DNA of 64,000 nt from Lysobacterales bacterium (lineage in GTDB: Bacteria > Pseudomonadota > Gammaproteobacteria > Xanthomonadales > SZUA-5): the NCBI GenBank assembly GCA_022844135.1, contig JALHMG010000004.1, forward strand, positions 62,001-126,000. The letters run 5' to 3'. Shown here in pieces: positions 6,635 to 57,788 of this stretch. Every line of letters starts with the position of its first letter. Position 1 is the first letter of the stretch. The translations under genes were made by a program, and so were the position numbers. The notes beneath the pieces are model-generated. The model had not been told where the DNA came from and ran no database searches. It was given only the letters and a program-made list of their open reading frames with translations.

Positions 6635-7447
6635 TTGCCCGCACATGCCACCACCGCACAGCCACGTGGGTTCTTGATCCCGATCGGCGGCGCCGAAGAC
6701 AAGATCGGAGATGCGACGATTCTGAAGCGCTTTGTGCGCCTTTGCGGCAAGCGGCCGTCGATCGCGATCATTCCCACTGCGTCCAAACGCGACGATGCGG
6801 GCCGCGTCTACCAGGAGCTGTTCGGCGGATTCGATGCCGCGAATACCCAGATCCTGCAATTCGCCCGGCGCGAAGATTGCGAGAACGACGTCGCCCTCAA
6901 GCTTCTGAGCGAGTGCGACGGGGTGTTCATCACCGGCGGCAATCAACTGCGCCTGTCGACGACCATCGGCGGAACGCCGGTAGCCAAGTTGCTGCGCCGG
7001 CGCAACGCAAACGGCATGCCGATCGCCGGCACCAGCGCGGGCGCGGCGATCATGCCGGCGCACATGATTGCTCACGGTGAGGAGGGTGCCACGCCGCGAG
7101 CAGGCATGGTGAGCCTCGCGCCTGGGCTGGGGTTGTCGAACAAGATCATGATCGATCAGCATTTTCGCCAGCGCGATCGCATAGGTCGACTGTTGACGGC
7201 GATTGCATTGAACCCATTCGCGTTGGCGCTTGGGATCGACGAAGACACGGCCGCATTCATCGGTCCAGACAATTTGTTGGAAGTTGTCGGCAACAGCACT
7301 GTGCTGGTGCTCGATCCATCCGAGGTGAAGCACTCGTCGCTCGCCGAGGCCGATCCCGGCGATCCAGTGAGCATCACCAATGTGCGTTTGCATATTCTCA
7401 CTGCTGGCATGCGTTTCGACATCGATCGGCGCGTGGTTGCGGAATGA
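6635..7447 (+). CDS. cphB: Cyanophycinase (peptidase S51)
   Basis: 270 aa, usual for the family. Cyanophycinase cuts the storage polymer cyanophycin (multi-L-arginyl-poly-L-aspartate) to beta-Asp-Arg dipeptides. Visible: IPIGGAEDK near the N-terminus, the FITGGNQLRL loop (98-106), and the nucleophile elbow AGTSAGAA with Ser134. The start is TTG, preceded by GGAG at a suitable distance; no ATG exists near. A TATACT -10-like box lies at about 6593-6598. The usual partner cphA (cyanophycin synthetase) is not beside it, although an arginine-succinylation-type operon lies 45 kb away. It may instead act on imported or environmental cyanophycin, but no signal peptide is visible. Confidence 0.9.
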   Translation: MPAHATTAQPRGFLIPIGGAEDKIGDATILKRFVRLCGKRPSIAIIPTASKRDDAGRVYQELFGGFDAANTQILQFARREDCENDVALKLLSECDGVFITGGNQLRLSTTIGGTPVAKLLRRRNANGMPIAGTSAGAAIMPAHMIAHGEEGATPRAGMVSLAPGLGLSNKIMIDQHFRQRDRIGRLLTAIALNPFALALGIDEDTAAFIGPDNLLEVVGNSTVLVLDPSEVKHSSLAEADPGDPVSITNVRLHILTAGMRFDIDRRVVAE

Positions 7448-46975: not shown

Positions 46976-48154
46976 ATGATCGGCACCGCCTTAACGTCTT
47001 CAGCTTTCAAGCTCATGTTGTTGGGCTCAGGCGAGCTTGGCAAAGAAGTGGCGATCGAGGCACAGCGGCTGGGATTGGAGGTGATCGCAGTCGATCGCTA
47101 CGCAAACGCGCCCGCCATGCAGGTGGCGCACCGCGCGCATGTGATCAACATGCTCGATGGTGCCGCGCTGCGTGCCCTGATCGAAGCTGAACGCCCAGAT
47201 GTTGTCGTGCCCGAGCTCGAAGCCATCCACACCCCAACGCTGGAGGAGATGGAGATCGACGGTCTCGTGGTTGTTCCGACCGCGCGCGCCGCACGATTGA
47301 CCATGGATCGCGAGGGCATTCGCCGACTTGCCTCGGAAACGCTGGGACTGCCGACCTCGCCGTATCGCTTCTGCGATGACGAGCCCAGTTATCGCGATGC
47401 CATCGAGACGCTCGGTCTGCCGTGCGTCGTCAAGCCGCTGATGAGTTCGAGCGGCAAGGGCCAGAGCATTGTGCGCACGCCCCTCGATATCGACGCCGCC
47501 TGGCAATACGCGCAGGCGGGCGGACGCGCCGGTGCAGGGCGAGTGATCGTCGAGGGCTTCGTGCCTTTCGATTTCGAAATTACCTTGCTCACGGTGCGCC
47601 ACCAAGGCGGCACGACGTTCTGCGAGCCGATTGGCCACTATCAGGAAGATGGCGACTATCGGGAGTCGTGGCAACCACAGCCGATGGCGCCCGCGGCGCT
47701 CAGGAAAGCGCAAGCCATCGCGCAAAAGATCACCGACGCGCTCGGCGGGCGCGGGCTTTTCGGTGTCGAGCTGTTTGTACGCGGCGATGAGGTGTTGTTC
47801 TCCGAAGTATCGCCCCGCCCGCACGACACTGGACTGGTCACGCTGATCTCGCAAGACGTTTCCGAGTTCGCCTTGCACCTGCGAGCGATTCTGGGACTGC
47901 CGATTCCAGTGGTGCGCAGCCGCACACCGGCAGCGTCGGTGGCGATTCTTGCCGAAGGCCACGGCGAAGCGCCGCGCTACTACGGCATCGATTCGGCGCT
48001 TGCCGAACCCGATACCGACATTCGCCTCTTCGGCAAACCCACCGTCGCCGGGCGCCGCCGCGTCGGCGTAGCGCTGGCACGCGCCGAAACCCTGTTCGCT
48101 GCGCGCGAAAAAGCAAGGCGCGCGGCAGCTGCGGTGCGGATTGAGCTCAGTTGA
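46976..48154 (+). CDS. purT: Formate-dependent phosphoribosylglycinamide formyltransferase
   Basis: 392 aa, an ATP-grasp enzyme that makes N-formyl-GAR from GAR, formate and ATP, an alternative to PurN in purine synthesis. [40 protein letters not shown] is the diagnostic N-terminus; the ATP-grasp part has [14 protein letters not shown] near 150 and [27 protein letters not shown] near 255. The start follows AAGGGC. Complete. Confidence 0.97.
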
Positions 48155-48203
48155 CGCTCTTCGTGTCGAAATCAATGCTCACGATGCGCCGAGAACTGAA
48201 GGG

Positions 48204-48294
48204 GCGCGATTCGTCGCGCGCCAGTGGCGGTCCGAGACAGGCCGGATCGACGAGAGTTGATCGCCGGCCAATTCGGGCGCGATGAATCGCGCCC
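48204..48294. repeat. Pair of REP-like palindromes
   Basis: Two GC-rich palindromes of the same family: GCGCGA-TTCG-TCGCGC (48204-48219, within GGGGCGCGATTCGTCGCGC) and GGGCGCGA-TGAA-TCGCGCCC (48275-48294). They lie 55 bases apart in the 187-base space between the convergent purT and TonB-receptor genes and could fold together or singly. REP doublets of this kind often serve RAYT transposases, but none is in this window. Confidence 0.6.
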
Positions 48295-48341
48295 CTACCG
48301 GTCCAAGACTTGCCCGCTGTGCCGCGCTATCACCATTGAGC

Positions 48342-51101
48342 TTAGAAGAACTTGTACTCCAATCCCAAGTAATACGAACGCCCGCGCGGATCGGTGTAGG
48401 TGGGGTCGTATCCGGCGATGAAGAAATACGCCTGGTTGGAGAACGGCGGTTCCTCATTCAGCACGTTGAGCATGCCGCCGCGCAAACGGAGGTTGTTGTT
48501 GATGTCCCATGCGCCGGTCAGATCCCACAGCGAATAGGCATCGACGTCGCGCTCTGGGAGGCGCTCGTCGGTAAACGGATCGTAGGTGGTGTTCTGATCT
48601 TCGTAGCCGGAGAGGTAGCTGTTCGCCAGCGTCAGACCGACCGGGCCGTAGTCCCAGTTGAACGCAATGCGATGGCGCCAGCGTTGGATGACCTGATCGT
48701 TCAAGAAGCGCCCCAAGTTGCTGCGATACGGCTCCAAGGGTCCGAACTGACGTTCGTACTCGAGCACGTAAGTGCCGCTGATATCGATGCTGAATTCGCC
48801 CCACTCAGTTTCCTCGGTGGCGATGCGCGAGGTTAGATCCAAACCGGAGGTCTTGAGCTTGCCCTGGTTTTCTTTCTGCAAAATGATGTTGGTGATGAAG
48901 CCATCGCTATCGCGCTCGATGTAGGTGCCGTTATAGCGCTGCGGGTTCTCGATGATGATCTGCTCGCCGAGCGTGGAAATCACGTCGCGCTTTTGCAAGA
49001 AGAAGTATTCGAGGCCGATGTTGAATTGGCGGCTCGGCTCGTAGACGAAGCCCACCGAAAACTGGCGCGAACGCTCGGGATCCAGATCCGGATTGCTGCG
49101 GCGCTCTACCGGCCATTGGTCGGTACAAAGATCGATGCTGCCCTCGGCTGCGGCGCATTGCGGATCGGTGATCAGACTTGAGGTTACGCCAAAAATCGTC
49201 GGGCGATTGAGATCGTTGAGCGACGGCGCGCGAAAGCCGGTGCCGGCCGAGCCACGGATGATCAGGGTCTCGGAAGGTTGCCAGCGGACACCAAACTTCG
49301 GATTAAACGTGTTGCCGACGTCCTGGTAATCGTCGAAGCGCAGCGCACCCTGCAGCTCCACTGTTTCGGTCACCGGCGCGTTCAACTCGGCATAGGCCGA
49401 GACGATGGTGCGCCCATCGCGCGTAGCCTGAATGTCGGACGGGCCGCCGACGGGAATAGTGCTGTCGCGATCGCCGGCGATGTTGTTGCTGAGCAGCAAG
49501 GCCGAGGGGGTGAACTCTTGCGTCTCGCGGCGCACTTCGCCGCCGAGCGCGAGGCCCAGATCGCCATACTCCATTTCCATGATCGAGCGCGATGCGTTGA
49601 AGTCCCAGAACTCGCTGGTGCCATCCGACACGCGCGCTTCGTCGTCGATTGTGATGCTGTCGATCAGCGCCTGGCCGGTGGCGCTGGACGGGCCGAAAGG
49701 ATTGATCGTGCCATTGCGGATGCCGGCATCGAAACGATCGAACAACACATAACCATCGACATAGCGATCCACTGCATCGTTTTGCGCACGTCCAATGGCG
49801 GTACCGTAGTACCAGTCGCCAAGGTTGCCCTCGGCACCAACCAACAGGCGTGTGCCTTCGCTGGTTACTTCGCTGGTGCGGTTGCCGGCTTGCTCCATGC
49901 GCAGGCGAATACCGCTGAACGTGGTCGGCAGATTAGGGCGGTTGAGCGCGCTGCGATAGGGTTCCGGGAGCAACGTCACCGGCAGATTACGGATGCGCTG
50001 CGGGTTCGGGCTCAAGCGATAGATGGACTCAGCGCGCGCGAACGAGGCTTCGGCAAACACCGTGTGATCGTCGCCCACCTTGAACGTAGCGCGGCCCATA
50101 AAGCCCAGGCGATCGGACTCGGGATAGATTTCGGTGTCGCGCATGTAGTCGTAGCTGCACGCCAACGGACCGCCCGGACCTTGCGCGGCGAACACAGTGG
50201 CGGGGGGATTGCAGCCCGGGTTGCTCGGGTTGATGCGCGTGCGCGTCGTGCCAGCCGGCAGAATGCCGGCGGCGATCAACGCATTGCGCTGCGCTGAGCT
50301 GATGTCGATGTTGGCGGGGAAGGTATTGCTCGACATCAGCGCCGGCAGCAGCGTCGCCAGTGGGCGTTCCTGGATGAACTCGCGTTGGCTGGAGCGCAGT
50401 GCGCCGAGTCGCTGCACATCGACGACACCGAAAACGTTGTAGCGATCTTCCTCTAAGTTACCGAAGCCGCCGCTGATCGTGGCGGTGTGCTTCTCAGCGC
50501 CGCCCTCGTCGGTATCGGCCGTCGATACGCTCAAGTCGAGGCCTTCATAATCGGTGCGGGTGATGAAATTGATCACGCCGCCGATGGCGTCTGAGCCATA
50601 CACCGCAGAGGCGCCATCCTTCAGTACCTCGACCCGTTCGATCGCGCCGGCAGGAATATTGTTGAGGTCCACACCTGCCTCATCGCCAGGGGAGGCGAAG
50701 TTCGCCAGGCGGCGACCATTGAGCAGGATCAGCGTGCTCGATACGCCAATGCCGCGCAGGTTTGCGCCATTGAAGCCGCGTTGGCCGCTGGTGCTGTCGG
50801 TGATGCTGGCGCCATCGCTGAGCGGCGCGGTGTTCGCTGTCAGCGTCTTGATCATTTCCGCCGCCGTCGTGACGCCGCGTGTGCGAATCTCCTCGCGCGT
50901 GATCACCTCCACCGGCAGCGCGGTTTCCGCGTCGATGCGTTTGATACGCGAGCCGGTGACGAATACCGTATCGAGCTTGGCTTTGTCTTCGTCCTCCGCG
51001 CCATCCTGCGCCAACGCCGGAACAGCGAGCGCCTGCAGCAGCGCGACAGTCAGAGCGGATTGGGTGAACGTGCGGCGGCTGCGCGTGGCGAGCTGATTCA
51101 T
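48342..51101 (-). CDS. TonB-dependent receptor
   Basis: 919 aa from ATG 51101 (GGAA upstream; a longer frame to 51263 runs through the untranslated region). Signal peptide RTFTQSALTVALLQALAVPALAQ, a TonB box-like DTVFVTGSRIKR, the plug domain (PVEVITREEIRTRGVTTAAEMIKTL; GVSSTLILLNGRRLANF; AIERVEVLKDGASAVYGSDAIGGVINFITR) and a 22-strand barrel ending in the aromatic GLEYKFF. It imports a bulky nutrient, but none can be named from sequence; members of this subgroup (with the plug text GxSSTLILLNGRRL) are numerous in the order. No neighbouring periplasmic or inner-membrane transporter. Confidence 0.94.
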   Translation of the reverse strand: MNQLATRSRRTFTQSALTVALLQALAVPALAQDGAEDEDKAKLDTVFVTGSRIKRIDAETALPVEVITREEIRTRGVTTAAEMIKTLTANTAPLSDGASITDSTSGQRGFNGANLRGIGVSSTLILLNGRRLANFASPGDEAGVDLNNIPAGAIERVEVLKDGASAVYGSDAIGGVINFITRTDYEGLDLSVSTADTDEGGAEKHTATISGGFGNLEEDRYNVFGVVDVQRLGALRSSQREFIQERPLATLLPALMSSNTFPANIDISSAQRNALIAAGILPAGTTRTRINPSNPGCNPPATVFAAQGPGGPLACSYDYMRDTEIYPESDRLGFMGRATFKVGDDHTVFAEASFARAESIYRLSPNPQRIRNLPVTLLPEPYRSALNRPNLPTTFSGIRLRMEQAGNRTSEVTSEGTRLLVGAEGNLGDWYYGTAIGRAQNDAVDRYVDGYVLFDRFDAGIRNGTINPFGPSSATGQALIDSITIDDEARVSDGTSEFWDFNASRSIMEMEYGDLGLALGGEVRRETQEFTPSALLLSNNIAGDRDSTIPVGGPSDIQATRDGRTIVSAYAELNAPVTETVELQGALRFDDYQDVGNTFNPKFGVRWQPSETLIIRGSAGTGFRAPSLNDLNRPTIFGVTSSLITDPQCAAAEGSIDLCTDQWPVERRSNPDLDPERSRQFSVGFVYEPSRQFNIGLEYFFLQKRDVISTLGEQIIIENPQRYNGTYIERDSDGFITNIILQKENQGKLKTSGLDLTSRIATEETEWGEFSIDISGTYVLEYERQFGPLEPYRSNLGRFLNDQVIQRWRHRIAFNWDYGPVGLTLANSYLSGYEDQNTTYDPFTDERLPERDVDAYSLWDLTGAWDINNNLRLRGGMLNVLNEEPPFSNQAYFFIAGYDPTYTDPRGRSYYLGLEYKFF

Positions 51102-51237
51102 GCGGGGAGTTCCGGGTGCGGTGGAAGGGGCGCGATGGCCGCGCTGGCGCGCACTGTAGACCCGTCCATGAACCGTGCCATCGCGGATGGTCCGTGCAGT
51201 CGCCGCAGGAAAAGAGCGGGTCGCTTTTCCTAAAAGA

Positions 51238-51333
51238 GGCTTCAGTCGCGAGTCCGACGACATCGTCGCTGGTGGCTACCCAAACGCCTGTGGCTTCGTC
51301 CCATTCGGCGTGTATTTGGAGTGGCACTTTCAT
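51238..51333 (-). pseudogene. 5' remnant of a DUF1902 antitoxin-like gene
   Basis: A strong GGAGG is followed by ATG (51333) and 32 good codons: MKVPLQIHAEWDEATGVWV then ATSDDVVGLATEA. This is the N-terminus of DUF1902/HicB-like antitoxins. The family continues with a helix that is missing here; the frame runs on into unrelated sequence and out of frame into the receptor gene. The 455-base space 51102-51556 holds this remnant and otherwise only untranslated regulatory DNA, as far as I can see. Confidence 0.7.
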
Positions 51334-51556
51334 CGAGATCCTCCGGCGGCCTGATCGATAGCGTAACGCACAGCCATTTACGTCCCGAACCTTTCCGTCT
51401 CTTCGGTTCGACGGGTTATGCGTACGCTCTTGAGCCGGCAATGCAAGACACCGCGCCATGCCAATTTAAGAGAAAGCGACATCCCCGCGCTCAAACGATG
51501 GCCCGTCGGCGCACACGCTGCGATGATTCGCGCAATCGATCGAATCGCGAGCACGC

Positions 51557-52681
51557 ATGCATATCGAGCAACATCCGCTGACCGCACCAATGCCGGGCAC
51601 GGCGCGGTCGCTGACCAGTCTGCACTACGGGCCAGGTTCGGTCGCGCGCAAGGCGTACATCCAGTGTGCGTTGCATGCCGATGAGCCCCCGGGGCTGCTC
51701 GTCGGTTATTACCTGCGCAACAAGCTTGCGGAGCTCGAAGCGCAGGGCAGGGTGGTCGAACGCATTGTCCTGGTGCCGATGGCCAATCCGATCGGTCTGC
51801 ATCAGCGCGTTTTGGGGCGCGGATTGGGGCGCTTCGAGTTGGCGAGCGGCGAGAACTTCAATCGCAACTATGCCGACTTGAGCGAGTCGGCCTTCGAACG
51901 TCTGGAACCCGTGCTCAAAGAGCGCGCGCCGACCTTGGCGGAGGCGCGCCATGCTTTGCGTGAAGCGGCACTCGCGCTTGCGTGCGACAACGAGCTCGAC
52001 AGTCTGCGTGCAACGCTGCTGCGCCTTGCCGTCGATGCGGATCTCGTGCTCGATCTGCACTGCGATAACGAAGCGGTCATGCACCTCTACACCACAAACT
52101 GGAGCTGGCCGACTTTTGCGCCGCTGGCTGGTTTGCTGGGCGCGCGTGCGGCGCTGCTGTCGGATGATTCCGGCGGTGGGCCGTTCGATGAGAGCTGCTC
52201 GATGCTGCTGGAAAAACTCAGCCAGTTGATCGCCACCCGCACTCCTTTCCGCTTCGATGATGAACACGCCTGCGAAGCTACGACAGTGGAATTGCGCGGC
52301 GAGATCGACGTCGCGCACGAGTTTGCTCAAGCCGACGCCGACGCCATCGTCGACTTTCTTATCTACCGCAAATTCATTGCGGGCGAGCCGGTCGCCATTC
52401 CGACGCCGTGTGCGGGCACGCCTTTAGAAGGCTCGATGCCGGTGCCAGCGCCGGTCGGTGGCGTGCTGATCCATCGCGCGCAGCTCGGCGTCACGGTGCG
52501 CAAAGGCGAATTGATCGCCGAGATCCTCGATCCTGCGCAAGGCACGCTGACGCCAGTGTTGAGTCCGGTCGACGGCTTGTTGTTTGCGCGCGAAAGCGGC
52601 CGCGTGGTTCCGGCCGGTTTGCGCGTGGCGAAGGTTGCTGGCACCGAGTCGCTGCGGCGCGGGCCGTTGTTGTCGGCGTGA
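51557..52681 (+). CDS. AstE/AspA-family (M14-type) deacylase
   Basis: 374 aa. Succinylglutamate desuccinylase/aspartoacylase family: zinc ligands His40 and Glu43 in CALHADEPPG and His168 in LVLDLHCDNE; the C-terminal part (APVGGVLIHRAQLGVTVRKGELIAEILDP) is a lipoyl-like beta domain common in longer members. Authentic AstE is shorter (about 320 aa), so the substrate may differ, such as another N-acyl amino acid. It leads an operon in which the next three genes overlap: a GlxA-type regulator and two arginine succinyltransferase-like proteins, which supports an N-succinyl amino acid substrate. Confidence 0.85.
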   Translation: MHIEQHPLTAPMPGTARSLTSLHYGPGSVARKAYIQCALHADEPPGLLVGYYLRNKLAELEAQGRVVERIVLVPMANPIGLHQRVLGRGLGRFELASGENFNRNYADLSESAFERLEPVLKERAPTLAEARHALREAALALACDNELDSLRATLLRLAVDADLVLDLHCDNEAVMHLYTTNWSWPTFAPLAGLLGARAALLSDDSGGGPFDESCSMLLEKLSQLIATRTPFRFDDEHACEATTVELRGEIDVAHEFAQADADAIVDFLIYRKFIAGEPVAIPTPCAGTPLEGSMPVPAPVGGVLIHRAQLGVTVRKGELIAEILDPAQGTLTPVLSPVDGLLFARESGRVVPAGLRVAKVAGTESLRRGPLLSA

Positions 52682-53685
52682 GCGAATTCCTGCGCTTTGG
52701 GTTCCTGCTGCTGCCGCGTTTTTCGCTGCATTCCTTAAGCGCTGCGCTTGAAGCCCTGCGTGTGGCCAACGTAGCGTTGGGCGCTCGCGCGCTGGATTAC
52801 GTGTTGCTTTCTGCGGATGGCGATCCGGTGGTTTCGATGAGCGGCGAGCCGCTCGCCGTGAGCGGTCGCCTCGGCGCGGACATGCAGGCGCTGCATGGGT
52901 TGATGGTGGTCGCCGGTGCACTACCAACCGCCAGCGATACCGTCTGGATTCATGGGCCGCTCAAGACCGCCGCGACCACGCAGGAACGCCTGCGCGGCAT
53001 TCTCGGCGGGCTGGGTTGCGGTGCGGTGTGGCTCGCGGAGGCAGGCTTCATGGACGGCTATCGCTGCGCGGTCCCAGGGCTGCATGCGAGTAGCCTTAGT
53101 GCGCGGCTGCCGCATGCCATCGTTTCGACGCAGTTGTACGAGATCGATCGTGGGCGCCTGAGCGCTGTTGAGGGCGCGGCGACGCTCGATTTGATGCTCG
53201 CCTGGCTGGCGCAGCGCTATGGCGATCGCGTGCAGGCCGCGTTGATCGAGCATTTCGCCATCGAACGCATTCGCGCACCGCAGGATCGCCGCGCGGTGCC
53301 GCCGCGTGTCGCGGGTTCGGCCAAACTCGCAGAAGCGGTGGCCCTGATGCAAGCGAACCTTGGCGAGCCGCTCTCAACCGAGGACATCGCCGGCCTCGTC
53401 GGCGTGTCGCGGCGCCAGCTTGAGCGGCTGTTCAAGCAGCACCTCGATACCTTGCCATCGCGCTGGTATCTGGAGCAGCGGCTGGAGCGTGCGCGGCGGC
53501 TGTTGAAAGAGACCTCGCAGTCGATCCTGCAAGTGGGCCTGAGCGCCGGATTTACCAGCGGCGCGCATTTTTCCAACGCCTACAAACAATACTTCGGCCA
53601 CACGCCGCGCGATGAGCGCAGCGCGCGGGCCATTGCCTGGCGCGACGGTAGCCGCGCCCCGTCTGGAGACACGGTTGATGGATGA
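52678..53685 (+). CDS. GlxA-family AraC-type transcriptional regulator
   Basis: 335 aa from a GTG overlapping the AstE-like stop (GTGA). An N-terminal DJ-1/PfpI-like domain (EFLRFGFLLLPRFSLHSLSAALEALRVAN...DYVLLSADGDPV) and a C-terminal AraC DNA-binding domain with two helix-turn-helix motifs (LSTEDIAGLVGVSRRQLERLFKQHL; ILQVGLSAGFTSGAHFSNAYKQYFGHTPRDERS). In pseudomonads the same architecture (ArgR) activates the arginine succinyltransferase genes, so it is likely the local regulator, perhaps sensing arginine. Confidence 0.92.
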   Translation: MSEFLRFGFLLLPRFSLHSLSAALEALRVANVALGARALDYVLLSADGDPVVSMSGEPLAVSGRLGADMQALHGLMVVAGALPTASDTVWIHGPLKTAATTQERLRGILGGLGCGAVWLAEAGFMDGYRCAVPGLHASSLSARLPHAIVSTQLYEIDRGRLSAVEGAATLDLMLAWLAQRYGDRVQAALIEHFAIERIRAPQDRRAVPPRVAGSAKLAEAVALMQANLGEPLSTEDIAGLVGVSRRQLERLFKQHLDTLPSRWYLEQRLERARRLLKETSQSILQVGLSAGFTSGAHFSNAYKQYFGHTPRDERSARAIAWRDGSRAPSGDTVDG

Positions 53686-54724
53686 CTCATCACGATTCTT
53701 GCTGCGCCCTTGCGCCGAAAACGATCTGCCGGCGCTCGAACACTTTGCGGCTGCGAGTCCGGTTGGGATTACCACGTTACCTTACGACCGGGCGTTCCTG
53801 ACCGATCGATTGCAGCGATCGATTCATGCTTTTGCCACCGACGATTGCAGCGGCGAAGAGATTTACCTGTTCGCGCTGGAAGACTTGAGCCGCGGACAAG
53901 TGGTCGGCATCAGCGGCATCGCCGCACGCGCCGGGTTCTCGGATCGCTTCTATAGCTTTCGCAACGAGTACGTGGTGCACAGCAGCAAGCCGCTCGGCGT
54001 GAGCACGCGCATCCACACGCTGCACTTGTGCCACGACCTCACCGACGTCAGCTTGTTCATCAGCTTTCACATCGATCCCGAATACGCGGCCACGCTCGCA
54101 CCGCAACTGCTGTCGCGTGCGCGCCTGCTGTTCATCGCGCAGCATGCGGAGCGCTTTTCCGACCGCATCGCCGCCGAGAGCGCGGGCCTGGCAGACGACG
54201 CCGGACGTTGCCCGTTCTGGGACGCGGTCGGGCGGCGTTTCTTCGGCATGGACTACCCCACCGTCGAGCGCCTGACCGGTGGCCGCAGCAAAGCCTTCAT
54301 TGCGGACATGATGCCGCCCTCGCCGATCTATGTACCGATTCTTCCCGAGGAGGCGCAGTGGGCCATCGGCCAGCTGCACCCGATCGCCGAGCTGCCGTTT
54401 TCGATACTGATGGACGAGGGTTTCGATGCCGATACCTATGTCGATATTTTCGATGCCGGACCCACTGCGCAGGAGCGATTGGCGATGCTGAAAACGCCAT
54501 CGCGCTCCCGTCTTTGTCGGGTGACAGCGGGCGCCAGCGCTACCGATCCTCTGCACCTCGTCATTACCACTGGGCGCACAACGGCCCGTGCGATGCTGCT
54601 GCCGGCGCGCATTAGCGGCGCCGCCATCGGCCTGGATCTGCGCGCGATCCAAACGCTGAATCTGGAAGAGGGCGCAACCGTGCGTGCTGCGCCTTTCGAT
54701 GTCGCCGTGGAGCGCACCATATGA
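53678..54724 (+). CDS. astA: Arginine/ornithine N-succinyltransferase (AstA/AruF-like)
   Basis: 348 aa, full family length. Succinyl-CoA plus arginine gives N2-succinylarginine, the first step of the AST pathway. FLLRPCAENDLPALEHFAAASPVGITTLP is the conserved N-terminus (GNAT-like), IRGFSTRI-like GVSTRIHTLHLCHDLTDVSLFISFHIDPEY in the middle, and CPFWDAVGRRFFGMDYPTVERL and PILPEEAQWAIGQLHPIAELPFSILMDEGFDADTYVDIFDAGPT in the C-terminal half. The start ATG overlaps the regulator gene by 8 bases and has GGAG upstream. The next gene encodes a shorter paralogue, as aruF-aruG in Pseudomonas. Confidence 0.9.
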   Translation: MDDSSRFLLRPCAENDLPALEHFAAASPVGITTLPYDRAFLTDRLQRSIHAFATDDCSGEEIYLFALEDLSRGQVVGISGIAARAGFSDRFYSFRNEYVVHSSKPLGVSTRIHTLHLCHDLTDVSLFISFHIDPEYAATLAPQLLSRARLLFIAQHAERFSDRIAAESAGLADDAGRCPFWDAVGRRFFGMDYPTVERLTGGRSKAFIADMMPPSPIYVPILPEEAQWAIGQLHPIAELPFSILMDEGFDADTYVDIFDAGPTAQERLAMLKTPSRSRLCRVTAGASATDPLHLVITTGRTTARAMLLPARISGAAIGLDLRAIQTLNLEEGATVRAAPFDVAVERTI

Positions 54725-55473
54725 GCTACGAATTTCGCCTTGCGTCCACCTCGGACCTGACCAGCCTGGCGGGCCTGATCGACGCCGCTGAGATCGAAGG
54801 CGCCTCCTTCATCGACGATCCAGATGATTTTGTGCTGCTGGCCTTCGCGCTCGGCGACTCGATGCCCAAGGGCGCGGTGCGCTGTCGGCGCAACATCGGC
54901 AGCCACGAGCCGCGCTACTGGTATCACGTCGGCACGCGCGTCCATGCAGCGCCCGATCTTGCAATGTTCCGCCGCGAGCGCACCTTGCTGCTGGGCAATG
55001 ACTTGACTGGCACCATGGAAATCGCGGCGCTGGCGACGAGCGAGACCGACGTCGCTCGACGTCGGTTGCTGCAACACGAATTGATCGGTGCGGCAATCGA
55101 GCGCTTGCGGGCTCCAACCCATCGAATCGACTCAGCACGCATCATCGCTCCGCTGCCAGGATTGCGGCACGATGGCGTTTCGCCTTTCTGGGAAGGACTG
55201 GGGCGCGCCTTCTTCCCCGGCGATCCAGAGCAAGCGCGACGCCGCTTCGGGGAACGTTGGGTCACCCACGTCGCAGCTTTGCTGCCCAAGCACCCACTGG
55301 TGGTATCGATCTTGCCAGAGTCGGCACAGGCCGCGATCGGTCAAGTGCCCGACGCAGCCGCAGGCTACCGCGATGCCTTGCTCGCGCACGGGTTCGTCGT
55401 TGGACAGCACGTCTCGGTCGATGATGGCGGAGCGGTGCTGGAGCTGCATGCGAGCGCGGCGCCGCTTCGCTGA
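54721..55473 (+). CDS. Short AstA/AruG-like paralogue
   Basis: 250 aa, overlapping astA by ATGA. It aligns by eye with the neighbour in the C-terminal half (SPFWEGLGRAFFPGDPEQARRRFG against CPFWDAVGRRFFGMDYPTVERLTG; VVSILPESAQAAIGQVPDAAAGYRDALLAHGF against VPILPEEAQWAIGQLHPIAELPFSILMDEGF) but lacks about 90 residues of the family, chiefly from the middle and the end. It is probably the second subunit of a heteromeric enzyme, or has become a regulatory or scaffold partner. Confidence 0.75.
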   Translation: MSYEFRLASTSDLTSLAGLIDAAEIEGASFIDDPDDFVLLAFALGDSMPKGAVRCRRNIGSHEPRYWYHVGTRVHAAPDLAMFRRERTLLLGNDLTGTMEIAALATSETDVARRRLLQHELIGAAIERLRAPTHRIDSARIIAPLPGLRHDGVSPFWEGLGRAFFPGDPEQARRRFGERWVTHVAALLPKHPLVVSILPESAQAAIGQVPDAAAGYRDALLAHGFVVGQHVSVDDGGAVLELHASAAPLR

Positions 55474-55508
55474 TTTAAACTACCTGCGTGCGGCCACAGA
55501 GCAGAAGC

Positions 55509-55934
55509 ATGCTGAAGGGAGACAGCCTGACGCCCCGACTCAAGCGGCCGCCCCTTGCATCCGAGAACCCGGGCTCGAAATTCTCAATCGCAGCTCACCT
55601 GAAAGGCGATACGCCGCTGTGGTTCGCCTTTGGCATTACCTTTGCACTTGGCTGTTTTCTTGCGAACCTTGTCGCGATTGCGGTAGTGATCGGATTAGCC
55701 CGCATATTTCATGAGGGAACGCGGGAGATCGCGAAGGGCTTTGCGCCGGAATCGAGGCGCGAGGAGGAGGAATGGTTGTTCCATTGGGACGACGAGCAAC
55801 GAAGAGTCCGGCGCAAAGAACGAGCGAGGGCCGTGTTAGCGAGGAAATGGCAGCGAACACTCTGTCAGTACGACCAACTTGATGACTTCCACGCTGTAAC
55901 AACGAAATCAAGCCATTTCATCGCGACCTCATGA
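55509..55934 (+). CDS. Hypothetical single-span membrane protein
   Basis: 141 aa from ATG 55509 (AGAAG upstream). One membrane segment (LWFAFGITFALGCFLANLVAIAVVIGLARIF, about 47-77) and a charged cytoplasmic part (RREEEEWLFHWDDEQRRVRRKERARAVLARKWQRTL). No family recognised. It starts 36 bases after the AstA paralogue and is coupled by ATGA to the next gene. Confidence 0.65.
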   Translation: MLKGDSLTPRLKRPPLASENPGSKFSIAAHLKGDTPLWFAFGITFALGCFLANLVAIAVVIGLARIFHEGTREIAKGFAPESRREEEEWLFHWDDEQRRVRRKERARAVLARKWQRTLCQYDQLDDFHAVTTKSSHFIATS

Positions 55935-56690: not shown

Positions 56691-57788
56691 CTACCGCGAC
56701 CGACCCTTGAACATCGGCCGACTTGTGCCGGTGAACGGCATACGCACGCGACCGATGGTGTTGATGCGCTCTTCGGCCATGCGGTCGGACGCTTTCCAGG
56801 TCGCGATGCCGTCGCGCCTGGCGATTTTGAAGATCGTGCCGACGTTGTAGTAGATAGTGCGAAGCATGCGCATCGCGCGCTCGCGGTCGTAGCCATCGAG
56901 TTCGATCGACACATTCATCAGGCCGCCAGCGTTCACCGCGTAGTCCGGTGCGTACAGAATTCCGCGACGTTCCAGTTGATCGCCGCAATCGTCGGTGGCG
57001 AGCTGATTGTTTGCGGCGCCGCAGACCACTTTGAATTTGAAGCGCGGCATGGTTTTTTCGTTCACGGTGCCGCCCAACGCGCACGGCGAGTACACGTCCG
57101 CATCCACATCGTAAATCTCATCGAGCGCCACCGCTTCGCAGCCCAGCTCATCGACGCAGCGCTGCACCGCGGAGCGGTTGATGTCGGTCACGAACACCTT
57201 CGCCTTTTCGGCGCGCAAGAGTTTGCACAGCTCATAGCCGACATGGCCCACGCCTTGCACGGCGTAGGAGTAGTTGCCCACCTCTTCACTGCCAAAGCGC
57301 ACGTTGAGACTGGCCATGATGCCTTGCAGCGTGCCGGCCGCGGTGAACGGCGAGGGATCGCCAGAGCCGCCATGCACCTGATGCACGCCGGTGACGAAGT
57401 CGGTTTCCTGCATCACGTATTCCATGTCGTTGACGTCTATGCCAACGTCTTCGGCCGTGATGTAGCGACCGCCCAAGGAATTAACGAAACGACCGAACGC
57501 TCGGAACAAGCCTTCGGATTTATCGCGCGAGGGATCGCCGATGATCACACCCTTGCCGCCGCCCAGATTCAAACCCGCGACCGCCGCCTTGAACGTCATG
57601 CCGCGCGACAGCCGCAGCACATCGTTGAGCGCTTCCTGCTCGTTTTTGTAAGGCCACATGCGCAATCCGCCGAGCGCCGGGCCGAGCGTGGTGTTATGCA
57701 CCGCGATGATGGCTTTGAGGCCCACATCTTTGTTGTGGCAAAACACGACTTGCTCGTGGCCCATTTGACCGACGACATCGAACACCAT
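56691..57788 (-). CDS. Leucine/valine (Glu/Leu/Phe/Val family) dehydrogenase
   Basis: 365 aa. NAD-dependent oxidative deamination of branched-chain or aromatic amino acids. Motifs: LGPALGGLRMWPYKN, AVAGLNLGGGKGVIIGDP (catalytic Lys in GGGKG), ITAEDVGIDVNDMEYV, VQGVGHVGYELCKLL (Rossmann), and the family's PCALGGTVNEKTMPRFKFKVVCGAANNQL. Which substrate is favoured cannot be decided. It could feed amino nitrogen together with the AST-like operon next door, on the opposite strand, but that is only proximity. Confidence 0.93.
   Translation of the reverse strand: MVFDVVGQMGHEQVVFCHNKDVGLKAIIAVHNTTLGPALGGLRMWPYKNEQEALNDVLRLSRGMTFKAAVAGLNLGGGKGVIIGDPSRDKSEGLFRAFGRFVNSLGGRYITAEDVGIDVNDMEYVMQETDFVTGVHQVHGGSGDPSPFTAAGTLQGIMASLNVRFGSEEVGNYSYAVQGVGHVGYELCKLLRAEKAKVFVTDINRSAVQRCVDELGCEAVALDEIYDVDADVYSPCALGGTVNEKTMPRFKFKVVCGAANNQLATDDCGDQLERRGILYAPDYAVNAGGLMNVSIELDGYDRERAMRMLRTIYYNVGTIFKIARRDGIATWKASDRMAEERINTIGRVRMPFTGTSRPMFKGRSR

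Follow-up and report, generated by a model that had tools for sequence, protein, structure and literature searches.

Pseudomonas has an aot-argR operon and an aruCFGDBE cluster. The primary paper on CphZ, which appeared in PNAS in 2023, is said to recognise AotO of P. aeruginosa as a CphZ. CphZ of Acinetobacter baylyi is a cyanophycin dipeptide hydrolase according to the titles of the structures 8ein and 8eip, the latter containing beta-Asp-Arg. Excerpts of PMC10206079 state that proteins annotated as members of the succinylglutamate desuccinylase/aspartoacylase family are beta-Asp-Arg/Lys-specific dipeptidases and, citing Ben Hania et al., describe cyanophycin utilization loci with IadA, while an excerpt of PMC3400609 places TonB receptors near cyanophycinase genes in marine Citromicrobium. 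In this work we analysed a stretch of 64,000 nucleotides (contig JALHMG010000004.1, positions 62,001 to 126,000; hereafter the window) of a Lysobacterales bacterium whose genome (5.34 Mb, 75 contigs) is 99.8% complete. Four genes on its + strand, at 51557-55473, encode a CphZ-like hydrolase, an ArgR-like regulator and two AstA-family proteins, here called AST1 and AST2. We consider it likely that they form an arginine-controlled operon that serves to import and split beta-Asp-Arg and to N-acylate the freed arginine or ornithine, with AST1 as the catalytic and AST2 as the structural subunit. The features are as follows.

51557..52681, + strand: gene 1 (374 aa), predicted beta-Asp-Arg (cyanophycin dipeptide) hydrolase resembling CphZ; phmmer matches 8ein/8eip, AlphaFold2 model
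52678..53685, + strand: gene 2, AraC/XylS (GlxA-type) regulator, ArgR/GbdR-like; GbdR NF052371, HTH_18, ARG boxes upstream
53678..54724, + strand: gene 3, AST1, AruF-type arginine/ornithine succinyltransferase (AOST) subunit; TIGR03243, 1yle (E 2.1e-89), tree
54721..55473, + strand: gene 4, AST2, degenerate AstA-family subunit, 250 aa; PF04958, tree, model compared with 1yle
48342..51101, - strand: TonB-dependent receptor, divergent from the operon; PF00593/PF07715, likely start at Met55 of the longest open reading frame
51198..51234, + strand: tandem ARG-box-like operator upstream of the TonB receptor gene, half-sites 21 bp apart; 14/16 consensus letters
51466..51481, - strand: perfect ARG half-site with a poor partner (3/8), upstream of cphZ
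6635..7447, + strand: intracellular-type cyanophycinase (CphB), elsewhere in the window; TIGR02069 258.6 bits, cut-off 126.6

The four genes overlap at every junction, which indicates translational coupling: the GTG start of gene 2 lies within a GTGA overlap with the preceding stop, genes 2 and 3 overlap by 8 bp with an ATG start for the latter (an alternative start further upstream, at 53612, is less probable), and genes 3 and 4 meet in an ATGA overlap. The first-pass annotation, made from the sequence alone, had described four overlapping genes in this order, and rightly so; because the identical order recurs in other genomes at about 50-75% protein identity, chance can be excluded. Pfam assigned AstE_AspA_cat (PF24827, 44.6 bits, cut-off 25), an AraC-type helix-turn-helix, AstA (341 bits) and again AstA (111 bits) to the four products in turn. 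The partners of the operon extend beyond these coordinates to the divergent TonB receptor gene and the shared promoter region with its ARG boxes.

The product of gene 1 is CphZ-like, being closer to CphZ than to AstE in full-length sequence and in fold. Its top phmmer matches were 8ein (E 2.5e-67) and 8eip (E 1.6e-66) over residues 7-366, the next best being at 1e-16, and its AlphaFold2 model (31 sequences, mean predicted local distance difference test score, pLDDT, 93.6) matched 8eip with a Z of 47.6 and a root mean square deviation of 2.0 A over 364 residues, compared with Z 17.8-18.2 for AstE structures. H40, E43, H168 and E245 are invariant across the 31 sequences and make up the metal motif HxxE...H, whose residues are presumably the metal ligands, and the catalytic Glu; E245 aligns with the Glu mutated in 8eip. 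No NCBIfam family matched the protein, and the cut-off of the AstE equivalog TIGR03242 was not reached. By homology, the enzyme is predicted to hydrolyse beta-Asp-Arg into aspartate and arginine. The first-pass annotation had called the product AstE-like, though longer than AstE; this identity is rejected on the sequence matches, the fold and synteny.

Relatives were profiled by a contig scan with CphZ, which yielded 45 loci (L079 matches over 52 residues only), and neighbours were identified by tblastn with genes of the window and its relatives and, on 19 loci and the window, with E. coli AstA-E; L008 and L037 are the same contig, as are L009 and L038, and each was counted once. Locus L049 is complete, with the order CphZ-regulator-AstC-AruF-AruG-AstD-AstB, and further frames flank its CphZ gene in the positions that ABC genes take at other loci. 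At L046 the order TonB receptor-S51-CphZ-regulator-AstC runs to the contig end, again with frames around CphZ placed like ABC genes. Three loci, L039 (a Dokdonella metagenome-assembled genome), L058 (Ideonella benzenivorans) and L078 (Rubrivivax sp. A210), share the order receptor-S51-[ABC genes]-CphZ-[ABC ATPase]-regulator-AST1-AST2, and the E. coli queries found no AstC, AstD or AstB at them; in L039 and L058 the ABC genes fall into families of the lysine/arginine/ornithine/histidine type. The window has the arrangement receptor-CphZ-regulator-AST1-AST2, and in L037 and L038 genes for an S51 protein and a YfcC-type antiporter come after it, with the S51 gene of L038 on the opposite strand. 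Separately, CphZ-like genes with 37-41% identity occur in Desulfobacterales/Deltaproteobacteria, SAR324 and further metagenome-assembled genomes (L059-L065, L070), where none of the cluster's genes was recognised beside them.

AST1 scored 355.2 bits against TIGR03243, above the subfamily cut-off of 284.35, and in a 21-row maximum-likelihood tree the AST1 proteins formed one group (99/96) beside AruF of the complete L049 cluster. AST2 scored 111.7 bits, under the same cut-off, and the full-length AST2 of L009 146.9. In the tree the six AST2 rows (the window and five others) were monophyletic (100/100) on a long stem; their exact attachment is uncertain because several branches are long, and the closest pairwise identities of AST2 were mostly to AruG of L049 (28-34%). 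Eight AOST/AstA reference rows share 40 invariant positions (loci L011-L013 served as AOST references only, and the frame-shifted AruF_L013 was left out); of these the window's AST1 keeps 37 and its AST2 26, the ranges over the six being 34-38 and 23-26. All six AST2 proteins have lost about 20-35 residues near the N-terminus, including a conserved TTLP-type stretch, and five of the six have replaced the equivalent of His229 of E. coli AstA, which we take to be the active-site residue, as databases list it. The conserved AST2 blocks include HVG and GND stretches, and the AST2 model (pLDDT 79.9) matched 1yle with Z 21.3, the next structure following at 12.9, so that the AOST fold is retained. 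Reading frames are open in six of six AST1 genes, whose products are 54-75% identical, and in six of six AST2 genes. The first-pass annotation had noted that the second transferase is short by about 90 residues; AST2 measures 250 aa in the window, 256 in L037 and 265 in L078, and since those of L039, L058 and L038 reach 319-333 aa, this deficit is partly a C-terminal trimming, found in three of the six, and does not define the family. Rather than a simple truncation, AST2 is a degenerate subunit family of its own that is conserved across Lysobacterales and Betaproteobacteria. A 597-aa frame after AST2 in L009 was discarded, being antisense to the S51 gene on the opposite strand. A differing AOST arrangement was seen on a Novosphingobium megaplasmid (L011, 7010-11561), where astB lies between two AstA-family genes and an astD-like gene comes after them.

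The best NCBIfam match of the regulator was GbdR (NF052371, 250 bits, cut-off 480), and HTH_18 is present. A choline-type regulator was rejected, the GbdR score being about half of the cut-off, and the ARG boxes upstream favour the ArgR type; control of the operon by an arginine regulator is therefore probable. According to an excerpt of PMC10963909, Pseudomonas ARG boxes (TGTCGCN6GNAA) stand in tandem, 5 bp apart, equal to a 21-bp period. Scoring 16 letters per tandem pair at a threshold of 14 in the window and 44 loci (787,847 bases), we found 12 pairs, compared with none in a block-shuffled copy; nine lie upstream of TonB receptors (window, L037, L038, L039 and L046, with two each in L058 and L078) and three elsewhere. 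The window pair has 14 of the 16 scored letters and is without the consensus G. Tandem boxes at 21 bp occur in seven of nine receptor-upstream regions, window included, whose bounds were redrawn between the ARG-box scans: that of the window was first set to 51264-51556 (best pair 11) and, after the site had been found, the receptor start became 51101 and the region 51102-51556. When the A positions were dropped, exact GTCGC repeats of period 21 were likewise present in seven of the nine regions (5,793 bases), where other periods from 10 to 33 gave 0 or 1; the whole set holds 26 at period 21. At L053 and L066, where receptor and CphZ genes are both present, no operator reached 14/16, the best of L066 being 13. 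Sigma-70 promoter and terminator scans gave nothing exceeding shuffled sequence.

Cyanophycin is the probable source of the dipeptide. The cyanophycinase in the window, to which the first-pass annotation had already pointed as a source of arginine, proved to be the key link, and the genome also encodes a cyanophycin synthetase CphA (1161 bits, cut-off 850) and a second S51/cyanophycinase-like protein of 534 aa on another contig (C8; locus L030, 7854-9458). Scored alone, the latter reached 23.5 bits in Pfam, marginally below the cut-off of 23.9; it is 44-46% identical to the S51 protein next to the operon in L037/L008, and in two relatives (L037 and L038) its orthologues adjoin the operon. Hydrophobic, signal-like N-termini, judged by eye, are found in the S51 proteins of L030, L008, L009, L039, L058, L078 and L046, and in L039, L046, L058 and L078 such S51 genes lie between the receptor gene and ABC genes of the Aot type. 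Cyanophycinase, dipeptide hydrolase and transporter are united in one locus in L037, L038, L039, L046, L058, L066 and L078, L066 consisting of receptor, S51 and CphZ only. The TonB receptor itself has orthologues beside CphZ at 72-78% identity in L037, L038 and L039 and at 44-48% in L046, L053, L058, L066 and L078.

Several neighbours of these genes deserve mention. The 534-aa S51 gene adjoins a class II (D/K/N-type) tRNA synthetase gene. A YfcC-type (DcuC family) antiporter gene adjoins the secreted-type S51 gene in L008 (10819-12267) and L009 (11223-12674) and directly follows CphZ in L074 (11152-12612); its product is a candidate arginine, aspartate or dipeptide carrier. On the right flank of the operon lie a small open reading frame (55488-55934) without Pfam match, a dual-specificity phosphatase-like gene and an ELFV-type dehydrogenase gene (56691-57788) that scores 396 bits against the tryptophan dehydrogenase ScyB, whose cut-off of 600 is not reached.

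The first-pass annotation had also stated that this is no usual ast or aru cluster and that astB, astC and astD are missing. The former is borne out by the whole genome, in which AstB has no match (the control was detected in E. coli and Caulobacter) and the best AstD match reaches 245 bits against a cut-off of 579. The latter stands for astB genome-wide and for astD at cut-off; as to astC, none was found in the window with the E. coli query, which was also tried on some loci, no genome-wide search being made. AstE had no match in the genome. Among 200 genomes of the order, four had AstA-family matches; that of G007 is a common GNAT acetyltransferase, for which Acetyltransf_3 gives a much higher score, and was not counted as AOST, so that the window genome, G002 and G003 remain. 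AstB was present in three of the 12 genomes behind chosen loci (12 of the 45), namely those of L049, L046 and L053, and in none of the five with AST1/AST2, or none of six with the window genome; absence in G002 (L037, 77% complete) and G003 (L038, 7% contaminated) counts for less because the one is incomplete and the other contaminated. The four genomes whose CphZ locus has no AST pair (L035, L036, L074, L077) lack AstB too. No AstE at cut-off was found in nine genomes searched, a strict cut-off, since an AstE-like match in G207 narrowly misses it (277 against 306 bits).

Taken together, we propose that the TonB receptor would import cyanophycin fragments or beta-Asp-Arg, which CphZ, by homology, would cleave into aspartate and arginine. 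The ArgR-like regulator would sense arginine and act on the tandem ARG boxes found between the receptor gene and cphZ, and a heteromer of a catalytic AST1 and a structural or regulatory AST2 would N-acylate the freed arginine or ornithine. The pair probably goes back to a complete CphZ-ArgR-AST cluster from which astC, astD and astB disappeared, a proposal supported by intermediates: L049 is complete, L058, L078 and L039 lack astBCD at the locus, and the five other AST1/AST2 genomes lack AstB. With these genes lost, the acyl product must therefore have another fate. We tentatively suggest, as an idea with somewhat less than even chances, that AST1/AST2 is a new heteromeric N-acyltransferase for cyanophycin-derived arginine, whose acyl-arginine or acyl-ornithine enters an undescribed route, is exported or serves as a signal in genomes without AstB. 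The acceptor may also be other than free arginine, for example beta-Asp-Arg.

Several observations weigh against our main proposal. AST1 stays below the cut-offs of the equivalogs TIGR03244 and TIGR03245, scoring 362 bits against 458.8 for AOST-alpha, and the AST1 of L058, one of the six, lacks His229. The substrate of the TonB receptor is deduced from neighbouring genes, tblastn with the relatives' genes found no YfcC homologue in the window, and the genome's second S51 gene lies on another contig, the cyanophycinase gene of the window being 44 kb from the operon. In a genome that lacks AstB, AstE and an AstD match at cut-off, succinylarginine has no known route. Moreover, the nearest relative (L035 3534-6021, compared with window 46976-52681) keeps adjacent PurT (91%) and CphZ (81%) without receptor, regulator, AST1 and AST2, so the pair is unnecessary for CphZ function; L035 is either a natural loss or a state before the gain.

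The absence of the whole AST part in L035 makes decay a real rival. The AST part would then be a functionless leftover of a complete CphZ-ArgR-ast cluster, with AST2 being lost, in keeping with the missing astC, astD and astB at L039, L058 and L078 and the C-terminal trimming in three of six AST2 proteins. Nevertheless, we regard such a remnant as quite unlikely, as decay is not expected to preserve both subunits in six genomes with open frames and the AST1 identities given above, nor does it fit a pair that remains adjacent across Lysobacterales and Betaproteobacteria with the HVG and GND blocks of AST2 intact. Somewhat less doubtful, if still on the unlikely side, is a route in which arginase makes ornithine, AST1/AST2 turn it into succinylornithine, and enzymes of broad specificity (an aminotransferase, an aldehyde dehydrogenase and an amidohydrolase) complete the degradation, bypassing AstB. 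Pseudomonas AOST accepts ornithine, 1yle is named as an arginine/ornithine succinyltransferase, and ornithine is a possible acceptor because the genome encodes a true arginase (TIGR01229, 289.6 bits, cut-off 227.6); aminotransferases and AstD-like aldehyde dehydrogenases are present below curated cut-offs. However, such a route would lack AstE and an AstD at cut-off, and arginase is not tied to the AST pair, because arginase-family proteins occur in nine of nine family genomes searched, including those without AST; a search for ornithine aminotransferase was uninformative, no genome exceeding the cut-off. Finally, the first-pass annotation had imagined a closed cycle in which AST1/AST2 make N-succinyl amino acids and the deacylase hydrolyses them. 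The deacylase does belong to the AstE/aspartoacylase superfamily (PF24827), but since it matches CphZ over its whole length and far better than AstE, the cycle loses its desuccinylase, and CphZ is without an AST-family match in 38 of 44 contig loci (L079 excluded; some contigs are short); we therefore hold this idea to be highly improbable.

An arginine-controlled operon for beta-Asp-Arg, rather than a defective cluster for arginine degradation, remains our preferred reading. CphZ was discovered only recently. The loci described here, from Lysobacterales and Betaproteobacteria, set it beside ARG boxes, a TonB receptor and secreted-type cyanophycinases, so bacteria other than cyanobacteria may scavenge cyanophycin more widely than the annotation "succinylglutamate desuccinylase" reveals. 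The work also exposes a gap, a conserved succinyltransferase pair without product-consuming enzymes, which may hide either a novel route for arginine or a novel function of N-acyl arginine. A search of open-licence literature, whose coverage is partial and no proof of absence, returned nothing that unites arginine succinyltransferase and cyanophycin in one locus or joins CphZ, ArgR-type control and succinyltransferases without AstB.

Among known systems, CphZ of A. baylyi is alike in full-length sequence and fold, in the conserved HxxE...H and catalytic Glu, and in its link to an Aot-type transporter, an ArgR-type regulator and cyanophycin genes; it differs in that identity is about 38%, that the hydrolase is here coupled to AST1/AST2 and that a TonB receptor replaces the ABC transporter in the window. 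The cyanophycin utilization locus, as excerpts of PMC10206079 present it, likewise groups cyanophycinase, dipeptide hydrolase and transporter for scavenging, whereas here CphZ stands in place of IadA/IaaA, a TonB receptor, an ArgR-type regulator and the AST pair are added, and the genome also encodes cyanophycin synthetase. The Pseudomonas aot-argR and aruCFGDBE genes share with our locus a CphZ/AotO adjoining an AraC-type ArgR, the ARG boxes and an AruF-type subunit, but here homologues of AruF and AruG form part of the CphZ-ArgR operon, with a degenerate second subunit, and the genome has no astB, astE or astD match at cut-off. With AruF-AruG (1yle), the operon shares two adjacent AstA-family subunits, of which AST1 has nearly all invariant positions; the differences are that AST2 is without an N-terminal segment and mostly without His229, and that the AstB partner is absent in six genomes.

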